From contig FAXN01000092.1 in the NCBI GenBank assembly GCA_001493195.1, positions 1 to 50,496 of the forward strand: a stretch of DNA of 50,496 bases, in the 5' to 3' direction. Position numbers and translations under genes: made by a program. Positions 46,619 to 49,761 of the stretch are shown one piece after another. The notes under the pieces were generated by a model. It did not search any database, had not been told where the DNA came from, and saw only the letters and a program-made list of their open reading frames with translations. This DNA is from Sulfurovum sp. enrichment culture clone C5. Its GTDB lineage: Bacteria; Campylobacterota; Campylobacteria; Campylobacterales; Sulfurovaceae. The first letter of the stretch is position 1. Each line of letters starts with the position of its first letter.

Positions 46619-46984
46619 TTAGTGAACCGAACAAGTTCCTTGTCCATTGATAGTTTTTAATTCTCCGGAAATAAATTTTTCTATGCTATCTTTTACAGTC
46701 GCACTATCTTTGTCTACATAAACACTTAATCCTGCTTTTGCAAATCCTGCCGCAGGACTTCCGCCTATGCCACCGACTACAAGTGCGTCAGGGTTCAATT
46801 TCATAATATTCATAACTGCATTACTACAAGCTCCACTATCATGCCCACTATTGGCAATACCTTTAACATCCACTATTTTATTGTTTTTTAGTGTTATGAT
46901 GGTATAAAATTTTGCTTTGCCAAAATGTGCTCCTCTTGCTGATAAATAACCGTTGTTTTCATCTGTTGGAAATATAATTTTCAT
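46619..46984 (-). CDS. NifX/NifB-type dinitrogenase iron-molybdenum cofactor-binding family protein
   Basis: MKIIFPTDENNGYLSARGAHFGKAKFYTIITL...DALVVGGIGGSPAAGFAKAGLSVYV. Confidence 0.88.
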   Translation of the reverse strand: MKIIFPTDENNGYLSARGAHFGKAKFYTIITLKNNKIVDVKGIANSGHDSGACSNAVMNIMKLNPDALVVGGIGGSPAAGFAKAGLSVYVDKDSATVKDSIEKFISGELKTINGQGTCSVH

Positions 46985-46994
46985 AGTTCGTCCT

Positions 46995-47333
46995 TTAAAA
47001 TTGAAGATTTAATTGTTTATTTTTATATGCCTCATATGATTCTTTCAGAGTCATTCCGCCTGCACCAATATACATTTTGACAGTAGAGCGTTTTAAAATA
47101 TCTAATGCTTTATTGCCAGCACCGTTTCCAGTAATAATAACATCTGGGTTTAATGCAAGTACTTTTTGAGCTGTTTGGAGTCCAGCACCATGTTCCATTT
47201 GTTCGGTATCTATCTTGATTGCTTCAAAAGAATCTTCCTTTTCATTAAAAAGCACCAACATATCCATTCGTCCAAATCTCTCATCTATTTTACTATCCCA
47301 ACTATCGCCTTTTGCTGTAAATACTATTCTCAT
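46995..47333 (-). CDS. NifX/NifB-type dinitrogenase iron-molybdenum cofactor-binding family protein (second copy)
   Basis: MRIVFTAKGDSWDSKIDERFGRMDMLVLF...PDVIITGNGAGNKALDILKRS. Confidence 0.88.
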   Translation of the reverse strand: MRIVFTAKGDSWDSKIDERFGRMDMLVLFNEKEDSFEAIKIDTEQMEHGAGLQTAQKVLALNPDVIITGNGAGNKALDILKRSTVKMYIGAGGMTLKESYEAYKNKQLNLQF

Positions 47334-48217
47334 TTTTTATCCTTAATTATATTTTTTATTTCATTCCAACTCTCTTGAATAAGGGTTGAAATCTCACATT
47401 CTGCACTATATTCTACTATAGGCTTCGCCTCTACCAGAGCATGTGTAAATATCTCATTATAATGTAATTTTGAGATTACTTTGATATTTTCTGTATCCAA
47501 ATACTCTTCTATATTTTTACTCATATTTGCATTTAAATCGTATTTGTTTATTATGCAAACTGCTTTAAGTGAAAATGTTTTTAGTAATTTTATTACTCTT
47601 TTTAAATCATGCAATCCAGACACAGTAGCCTCTGTTACCAATACTACTAGATTAGCTCCGCTCAAAGAAGAAATTACAGGACATCCTATCCCTGGACTTC
47701 CATCCGTAATGATAAATTCCTTATCATTTTTAAGAGCAAAAATTTTTGCTTCCTGTTTTACTTTGGCTACAAGTTTACCGGAATTTTCTGCTGCAAATCC
47801 AAGCTTGGCATGTACCATTGTCGAATTATTTTTGATATTGGAGACAAAAAGATCCCCAGCTTTTTGTTTAACCATAGTAATAGCATCTTTTGGACACACT
47901 CTACTACAATACCAGCATCCCTCACAAGAAATTTTGTCTACGACATACTGCCCATTTTTAAGTTCAATTGCATCAAACCTGCAAACTTCTTCGCATTTAC
48001 CACAATTTGTACATTTTTCTTCATCTATAATAGCCAATTCTCCGCTGAAAAAATCCTCTTGTTTTGCAAAATCAGCATCAAGTAATATATGCATATTAGC
48101 AGCATCAACGTCGCAATCTGCAACTACTGCATTTGATCCCTCAAGATACGCAAAAGATGCACTTATCGAAGTTTTGCCAGTTCCACCTTTTCCTGATATG
48201 ACTACTATCTCTTTCAT
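47330..48217 (-). CDS. MinD-superfamily ATPase with inserted 2x[4Fe-4S] ferredoxin domain
   Basis: ISGKGGTGKTSISASFAYL; CTNCGKCEEVCRFDAI and CEGCWYCSRVCPKDAI. Confidence 0.94.
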   Translation of the reverse strand: MKEIVVISGKGGTGKTSISASFAYLEGSNAVVADCDVDAANMHILLDADFAKQEDFFSGELAIIDEEKCTNCGKCEEVCRFDAIELKNGQYVVDKISCEGCWYCSRVCPKDAITMVKQKAGDLFVSNIKNNSTMVHAKLGFAAENSGKLVAKVKQEAKIFALKNDKEFIITDGSPGIGCPVISSLSGANLVVLVTEATVSGLHDLKRVIKLLKTFSLKAVCIINKYDLNANMSKNIEEYLDTENIKVISKLHYNEIFTHALVEAKPIVEYSAECEISTLIQESWNEIKNIIKDKK

Positions 48218-49065
48218 CTTATCCCCTCTAAAAATTTTGCAATTTCTTCAATAGAATTTTTAAAATGTTCTATTTGTGTATATATAAGTTCTCCTCTGGA
48301 GTAGCATTGTGCAACTGCTTTGTCATTGTTGATTTTTGTAATAATAGGGATATTTTCATCTTTGCAATATTCTTCTATGCTATTGTTGCCAATCCCATAT
48401 CTGTTTATAATTACACCTATTTTTTTATCCAAAACTTTCATAGTCTCAACAGCAAGTTTAAGATCATTCAAACCAAAAGGAGTAGGTTCTGTTATGAGTA
48501 TTACAAAATCACTCTCACGACTTGCTTCGATAACAGGACAGCTTGTGCCTGGAGGTGCATCAAGAAGCTTGATGTATCCATCATAATTTTCATCTACATA
48601 GTCAATATTTTGCCCGATAAGTGGTACCGCCATCTCTTGACCAATATCAAGCCTACCTTCGACAAAGTCAAAGTTTTCTGTTTCAAAAACTTTAATTTCA
48701 CCGATTCGTTCAGGCATCATTGGCAATGAGTTTGTGGGACAAAGTTCACTACACGCATAACAACTATGGCAAAGCTCAGGATGTATGATAATCTCATCGC
48801 TAAGAGCTACTATGGCATTGAAGTTGCAAACATTTGCACAGTCACCGCAGTATGTACAATCAGTGCTATCCCAATGAGGTACCATTTTGTTAGCTATTTG
48901 ATCGTATTTAATTTTTCCATGTATAAATAGCCCTGAGTTTGGTTCTTCTACATCAAGATCTGTCAATACGACAGATTTACCATGTTCTGCCAAATATGCT
49001 GTTAGATTAGAGGAAACGGTGGTTTTTCCTGTACCACCCTTTCCACTTGCAATCGTTATTTTCAT
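48214..49065 (-). CDS. MinD-superfamily ATPase with inserted 2x[4Fe-4S] ferredoxin domain (paralog)
   Basis: IASGKGGTGKTTVSSNLTAYLAEHG; CTYCGDCANVCNFNAI and CHSCYACSELCPTNSL. Confidence 0.94.
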   Translation of the reverse strand: MKITIASGKGGTGKTTVSSNLTAYLAEHGKSVVLTDLDVEEPNSGLFIHGKIKYDQIANKMVPHWDSTDCTYCGDCANVCNFNAIVALSDEIIIHPELCHSCYACSELCPTNSLPMMPERIGEIKVFETENFDFVEGRLDIGQEMAVPLIGQNIDYVDENYDGYIKLLDAPPGTSCPVIEASRESDFVILITEPTPFGLNDLKLAVETMKVLDKKIGVIINRYGIGNNSIEEYCKDENIPIITKINNDKAVAQCYSRGELIYTQIEHFKNSIEEIAKFLEGIR

Positions 49066-49068
49066 TTT

Positions 49069-49311
49069 TTAGTTACTGCTACTAAAAGTTCTATTGTGTG
49101 CTTTACCGCGACCAGCACCTAGCCCCATTCCTTTACCATTGCCTTGGCAAGATTGATTGTTTTTGTTGGCTCTTCTGCCAAAACCTGTTCCGTTACCACT
49201 TCCGTTTTTTAATCCAACATTAGAGTTGTTGTCATTATTCACTATTTGCTCATTCTGGTTTCTTTTTCCCAAGCCTCTACCACAACCTCTTCCTTGACTG
49301 CGCCCAAACAT
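49069..49311 (-). CDS. Small Gly/Asn/Arg-rich protein associated with NifX/MinD cluster
   Basis: 80 aa MFGRSQGRGCGRGLGKRNQNEQ...GNGKGMGLGAGRGKAHNR; first gene of the cluster. Confidence 0.7.
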   Translation of the reverse strand: MFGRSQGRGCGRGLGKRNQNEQIVNNDNNSNVGLKNGSGNGTGFGRRANKNNQSCQGNGKGMGLGAGRGKAHNRTFSSSN

Positions 49312-49350: not shown

Positions 49351-49394
49351 TGAACATATGACCATATTATAACGAACATATGTTCAAAAGTCAA
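49351..49394 (-). promoter_or_regulatory. Promoter and operators of the NifX/MinD cluster
   Basis: Minus strand: TTGACT (49389-49394)-N17-TATAAT (49366-49371); perfect palindrome GAACATATGTTC (49374-49385) inside the spacer; second copy TGAACATATG at 49351-49360 near the expected start site. Confidence 0.8.
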
Positions 49395-49419
49395 GGGGTT
49401 TTATAATTTTTTCTTTTTA

Positions 49420-49710
49420 TTATCTTTTTTGAATTTCTATGGTTTTTTGATTGATAAGAGCATCGGCAATTTTTTGATGAGCAGACTGTATAAGTCTGGC
49501 AAAAGTAGTACGCGAGATACCCATTTTAATTGCAGAGTCTTCTTGATAGAGTGATTCTAGATCAGCCAATCTGATAGCTTCCATTTCGTCTTCATATATT
49601 GTAACCGCTTCTAATGTATCTCTTGGAATTCCACATGGCTTGAAACATACCTTGGAATGATCCATATTTATGTTTCTATTTTTTCTTTTTCTTCCAACGC
49701 AATTATTCAT
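49420..49710 (-). CDS. DUF134 (UPF0251) family predicted DNA-binding protein
   Basis: ESLYQEDSAIKMGISRTTFARLIQSAHQKIADALI HTH segment; CFKPCGIPR motif. Confidence 0.9.
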   Translation of the reverse strand: MNNCVGRKRKNRNINMDHSKVCFKPCGIPRDTLEAVTIYEDEMEAIRLADLESLYQEDSAIKMGISRTTFARLIQSAHQKIADALINQKTIEIQKR

Positions 49711-49732
49711 CTATATCCTAATTTTTAAACAA

Positions 49733-49761
49733 ATTATATCGAACATATACCCAAAAAGCAA
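49733..49761 (-). promoter_or_regulatory. Promoter and operator of the DUF134 gene
   Basis: Minus strand: TTGCTT (49756-49761)-N17-TATAAT (49733-49738); GAACATATAC (49741-49750) sits at the same spacer position as in the cluster promoter. Confidence 0.72.

Follow-up and report, generated by a model that had tools for sequence, protein, structure and literature searches.

A gene of the DUF134 family lies beside a cluster encoding ferredoxin-bearing MinD-type ATPases and NifX-type proteins in a 50,496-nt contig of Sulfurovum sp. enrichment culture clone C5 (FAXN01000092.1; "the window" below means this whole stretch), and the promoters ahead of both carry related palindromes. The locus raises the question of which protein reads the palindrome and which genes it controls. 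Sequence comparison points to the DUF134 protein itself, which is in all likelihood an autoregulating repressor that would act on a CATATG-centred palindrome, occlude RNA polymerase, and control the Gly-rich/MinD-ferredoxin/NifX operon. The features of the locus are collected in Table 1.

Table 1. Features of the DUF134 locus and adjoining gene cluster (window positions)
Feature	Position	Strand or symmetry	Basis and remarks
DUF134 promoter TTGCTT-N17-TATAAT	49733..49761	minus	TTGCTT 49761-49756, TATAAT 49738-49733; -10 and operator region conserved
Degenerate operator GGGTATATGTTC, in DUF134-promoter spacer	49741..49752	minus	fuller copies in relatives
DUF134 protein, 96 aa, predicted HTH DNA-binding regulator	49420..49710	minus	PF02001 E 7.7e-20; AlphaFold pLDDT 87
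Cluster promoter TTGACT-N17-TATAAT	49366..49394	minus	TTGACT 49394-49389, TATAAT 49371-49366; 11/12 to consensus; conserved in relatives
Primary operator GAACATATGTTC, in cluster-promoter spacer	49374..49385	palindrome	sole exact copy in genome; kept in 8-relative alignment
Second operator GGTCATATGTTC, at about +1 of cluster promoter	49352..49363	minus	22 nt from first; conserved
Gly-rich 80-aa protein, first gene of putative operon	49069..49311	minus	ORF; homologues in several clusters
MinD/Mrp-type P-loop ATPase with ferredoxin 4Fe-4S insert	48214..49065	minus	CbiA, ParA, Fer4
Second MinD-type ATPase with ferredoxin 4Fe-4S insert	47330..48217	minus	CbiA, Fer4
NifX-type protein (Nitro_FeMo-Co)	46995..47333	minus	PF02579 E 7.6e-8
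Second NifX-type protein (Nitro_FeMo-Co)	46619..46984	minus	PF02579 E 4.7e-13

Two promoters and a helix-turn-helix protein

The cluster promoter is the top sigma-70 match of the region in a promoter scan. The palindrome occupies its spacer 2 nt ahead of the -10 hexamer, and the second copy (GAACATATGACC on the plus strand) falls at the expected transcription start; the alignment of eight relatives of the window conserves the promoter and both copies. At the DUF134 promoter, the copy (GAACATATACCC on the plus strand) is likewise placed 2 nt from the -10, and the window has two copies of the string ATATGTTCGNTATAAT in all, one at each promoter. A preliminary description of the window had proposed the cluster promoter with its internal palindrome, the further copy near the transcription start, and the shared geometry, and all of these were confirmed. 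The copy at the DUF134 promoter of the window is degenerate, matching at 9 of 12 positions with the left half lost, while the corresponding promoters of relatives hold fuller copies (GAACATATGTGC, GAACATATGCGC and GCACATATGTTC). Autoregulation is therefore better supported in the relatives than in the window.

A perfect 12-bp palindrome is expected in a given 17-nt spacer with a chance probability of about 0.003. Matches with up to three mismatches occur in the window at background level (40 seen, 34.9 expected), arguing that the exact site alone is special, and this site is found just once in the 1.6-Mb Campylobacterales genome.

The letters of GAACATATGTTC are identical to the Gram-positive LexA site GAAC-N4-GTTC, and a literature search by operator strings returned LexA-regulated systems along with unrelated matches (RegPrecise and most subscription journals lay outside this search). 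Nevertheless, it is very improbable that the palindrome is an SOS box, and this reading was rejected: the LexA DNA-binding domain is absent from this genome (the assembly is 93% complete) and scores above cut-off in just 3 of 300 genomes of the order, and the homologous sites of other phyla (TGACATATGTCA and TGGCATATGCCA) are not LexA boxes.

The 96-aa protein belongs to DUF134 by its score against the PF02001 profile (71.7 bits, curated cut-off 27), and its AlphaFold model contains a confident HTH. The best Foldseek matches of this HTH, with weak E-values, are sigma region 4 and an operator-bound DeoR domain. A profile search also retrieves DeoR (E 3.5e-5), and the SorC/DeoR-type HTH (B. subtilis DeoR, PDB 7bhy and 8r7y) is the closest solved DNA-bound relative by sequence profile; a sequence search found no solved structure of a DUF134 protein. 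Unlike DeoR, DUF134 proteins have no sugar-binding domain, and are either short HTH proteins or fused to a Nitro_FeMo-Co (NifX) domain or a Zn ribbon. Most short forms retain a CFKPC motif near the N-terminus. These cysteines and fused domains suggest that a metal, sulfur or redox signal is sensed.

The Pfam entry for PF02001 (DUF134/UPF0251) lists the function as unknown and notes an HTH resembling sigma region 4. The titles and abstracts of the DUF134/UPF0251 papers searched describe no operator or regulatory role, and tables merely list the family. Nor was a regulon found in them; the present comparison proposes both.

The Gly-rich protein that opens the cluster matched no family in profile searches. 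It contains GRGxGRG repeats, and similar proteins precede MinD at five other loci (L119, L139, L144, L306 and L307).

Association of the operator with DUF134 genes

The link between operator and family was examined in 300 genomes of the order, of which 94 carry DUF134; 110 DUF134 genes were found and 101 loci examined. A conserved operator in the regulator's own promoter, as expected of an autoregulated repressor, is present at 88 of the 101 loci (at least 10 of 12 positions matching, within 300 bp upstream of the gene). The remaining 13 have in some cases variant copies and in a few cases none. A set of 120 half-site-permuted palindromes, the real one included, averaged 2.4 loci, and the best of the other 119 reached 8. 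When sites were counted in 250-bp bins, 135 fell directly upstream of DUF134 and between 0 and 6 in the other bins. The CATATG centre alone lies within 250 bp upstream of 93 of 101 DUF134 loci as against 286 of 4281 random windows, and precedes DUF134 in all 12 sampled families and 31 of 36 genera; the sampled genomes are related, so all these counts are of non-independent events and overstate the independent evidence.

The exact palindrome is rare, with 60 copies in the 300 genomes. DUF134-carrying genomes hold 39 of these, and 25 have a DUF134 gene at a distance of about 100 bp or less; by chance, far less than one such copy would be expected (110 genes times roughly 500 bp, out of about 600 Mb). 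A promoter pattern with the operator in the spacer, RNACATATGTNYNNTATAAT, gave 39 matches and its reversed control one: 32 were less than 500 bp from DUF134, 5 elsewhere in DUF134 genomes, and 2 in genomes scored as lacking the family. One of these last two (in G234) precedes a DUF134-like ATGAAAAATTGTGTTGG start that is severed by a contig end. The pattern in which the operator overlaps the -35, TTGACATATGN{12,14}TAWAAT, is less specific: 30 of its 57 matches lie near DUF134, and the others are split between DUF134 genomes (15) and other genomes (12).

The background level of inexact matches in the window might be taken to mean that the palindrome arose by chance in an AT-rich promoter. This explanation has a negligible probability and was rejected on the rarity and conservation of the site and its genome-wide association with DUF134, both in the comparison with permuted palindromes and in that of CATATG with random windows. 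The preliminary description had called for the genome-wide frequency of the palindrome and its conservation upstream of orthologous genes and clusters to be examined; the site is both rare and conserved, in other phyla as well as in this order. Its further inference of a DUF134 repressor gains support from the operator-DUF134 association, with autoregulation more strongly indicated in the relatives.

Another trans-acting regulator, such as a TetR-type protein, might instead bind the palindrome, with DUF134 merely one of its targets. A TetR gene of the same genome indeed has GAACATTTGTTC at the same position in the spacer of its own promoter, so that geometry alone would not identify the cognate protein; the DUF134 association does. 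Of the exact copies in genomes without DUF134, seven were examined: two of these also sit at TetR promoters, and none has a NifX, MinD or cyd gene recognisable nearby. Against this, TetR sites have a different centre from the CATATG operator. The CATATG site follows DUF134 genes from one family to the next, and plasmids and viral contigs of other phyla that carry DUF134 also have this type of site; a separate host regulator would leave this unexplained. A different regulator is thus improbable, and TetR as the cognate protein was rejected, its similar operator preceding its own gene. The TetR-family locus itself (L003, G000:C39:15183-18194) has GAACATTTGTTC in a TTGACA-N17-TATAAT spacer, with sites at 1501-1512 and 1586-1597, and the upstream region holds several GAAC/GTTC repeats. 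Six other genomes (G068, G196, G141, G216, G297 and G055) have similar TTGACATATGAAC..TGTTC promoters.

Candidate targets and other phyla

Within 4 kb of DUF134, the 101 loci have NifX-type genes in 80 cases, MinD in 23, SLAC1 in 20, and CydA in 15 (counts made without a random-region control); these neighbours fit a metal, sulfur or redox theme. An orthologue of the MinD ATPase (E below 1e-50) is present in 27 of the 300 genomes, and all 27 also carry DUF134, bearing out the expected co-occurrence of DUF134 with the MinD/NifX cluster. Where MinD is on a separate contig, an operator lies near or upstream of the MinD operon in four genomes (G251, G273, G197 and G023), with the -10 directed away from MinD in the last.

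Remote sites precede NifX (L208, L210, L211, where a CydA-like gene follows, L290 and L294), MinD (L214 and L307), cydA (L288), cation-efflux transporters (L219, as judged from sequence, L293 and L295), DUF4405 membrane proteins (L286, with TauE, and L289), and a rhodanese with TauE (L218). Among 13 remote exact copies in DUF134 genomes, 3 are intragenic and 3 are at promoters without an evident link. The NifX/ferredoxin-MinD regulon first suggested is thus supported by comparison but was drawn too narrowly, as cydAB, SLAC1, TauE, rhodanese and cation-efflux genes also appear to belong. In two species of one genus (G254 and G227; L216 and L217), the exact palindrome lies between divergent genes that resemble, by sequence, pyruvate dehydrogenase E1 and lipoate-protein ligase; this could be an extra target or a chance site inherited once.

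DUF134 genes with a CATATG-type site are carried by plasmids of Roseburia, Selenomonas, Peptoclostridium, Subdoligranulum, Treponema, Citrobacter, E. coli, Aeromonas and Proteus, and those on gut viral contigs are likewise preceded by such palindromes. The flanks are clade-specific: TTGACATATGTCAA in Bacillota, TGACAAATGTCA in Treponema, and TGGCATATGCCA or TTGCATATGCCA in Gammaproteobacteria; in Spirochaetota the centre is CAAATG. In Salinivibrio, a pair of operators follows DUF134 and precedes NifX, the same order as in the window. The Acetoanaerobium DUF134 locus has no clear palindrome, and the clostridial DUF134 gave no match when searched against phage records.

The Aeromonas plasmid gene has SLAC1 and a rhodanese-domain disulfide oxidoreductase as neighbours. 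DUF134-NifX pairs (L185, L186, L193 and L194) occur in about 190 plasmid records, mostly from Klebsiella, Citrobacter and other Enterobacteriaceae; many of these plasmids are conjugative, and some pairs have SLAC1, PaaI, Dps or a disulfide oxidoreductase close by. One record labelled a plasmid (L188, NZ_CP154629.1, from Acetoanaerobium noterae) is 2.63 Mb long, a size that suggests a chromosome. Among IMG/VR viral contigs (L195-L199), DUF134 genes have paired TTGACATATG operators, and in L196 DUF134 is fused to a NifX-like part beside phage tail-type genes and a chromate transporter.

A proposed mechanism and its relation to known systems

Comparison of the loci reveals two promoter layouts. 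In layout A the spacer is taken up by the operator, at 2 nt from the -10, with another copy 22-23 nt (at some loci about 33 nt) further downstream. Layout B begins with a copy overlapping the -35 (TTGACATATGTTC); next comes the -10, and the other copy is located 30-34 nt downstream. Where the DUF134 protein is long (about 200 aa, in some cases with a detected NifX domain), layout B is often on the opposite strand, and the promoter would then drive a divergent gene, namely cydAB, SLAC1 or NifX.

MerR-type activators remodel over-long promoter spacers. The spacer location could accordingly be read as that of an activator, but activation by DUF134 is improbable: the spacer has the optimal 17 nt rather than 19-20, which led to rejection of the MerR-like model, the hexamers match consensus at 11 of 12 positions, the second operator covers +1, and in the other layout the -35 itself lies under an operator. 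A near-consensus promoter of optimal spacing, with operators over the spacer or -35 and over the start, instead argues for a repressor.

In the proposed mechanism, the 96-aa DUF134 protein would bind the CATATG-centred palindrome (GAACATATGTTC here) directly, probably as a dimer. One dimer would occupy the -35/-10 spacer of the cluster promoter and another the +1 region about two helical turns downstream, and together they would block RNA polymerase on an otherwise strong promoter. DUF134 would thereby govern the Gly-rich/MinD-ferredoxin/NifX operon, and the weaker copy at its own promoter would allow autoregulation. The effector is probably a redox, sulfur or metal signal, perceived via the CFKPC cysteines in short forms or the fused NifX domain in long forms.

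This arrangement resembles that of autoregulated TetR-type repressors in the palindrome between -35 and -10, the autoregulation proposed here, and the adjacent operon; unlike these, DUF134 is an unrelated family and its operator is centred on CATATG. The ORP complex and MrpORP of Desulfovibrio vulgaris combine NifX-type proteins with MinD/Mrp ATPases bearing ferredoxin 4Fe-4S motifs, and the orp operons there have a sigma-54 promoter (PMC6345978). The window cluster shares the NifX-type proteins and ferredoxin-MinD ATPases but has no MrpORP fusion. A near-consensus sigma-70 promoter with a putative DUF134 operator precedes it.

Judged from these alignments and counts, DUF134 very probably represses its own gene in many bacteria, together with nearby genes for iron-sulfur, respiratory and anion-export functions. 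A broader proposal, which we favour only slightly over its negation, is that DUF134 proteins form a widespread family of autoregulating repressors (in Campylobacterota, Bacillota, Spirochaetota, plasmids of Gammaproteobacteria, and gut phages) with one ancestral CATATG-centred operator whose flanks have diverged by clade. These proteins may respond to a signal from sulfur, redox state or metal clusters, whether directly or via a fused or adjacent NifX domain, with Fe-S cofactor ATPases, cytochrome bd oxidase and sulfite-type exporters forming a single stress regulon under their control.

An uncharacterised Pfam family is thereby assigned a molecular function that is specific and can be tested, along with a defined DNA target and named candidate genes. 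The operator is so conserved that a single EMSA or reporter assay would be informative for several phyla. One regulator would connect proteins of the NifX/ORP type to cytochrome bd oxidase and sulfite-type exporters, which suggests a shared role in redox or reactive-sulfur biology.
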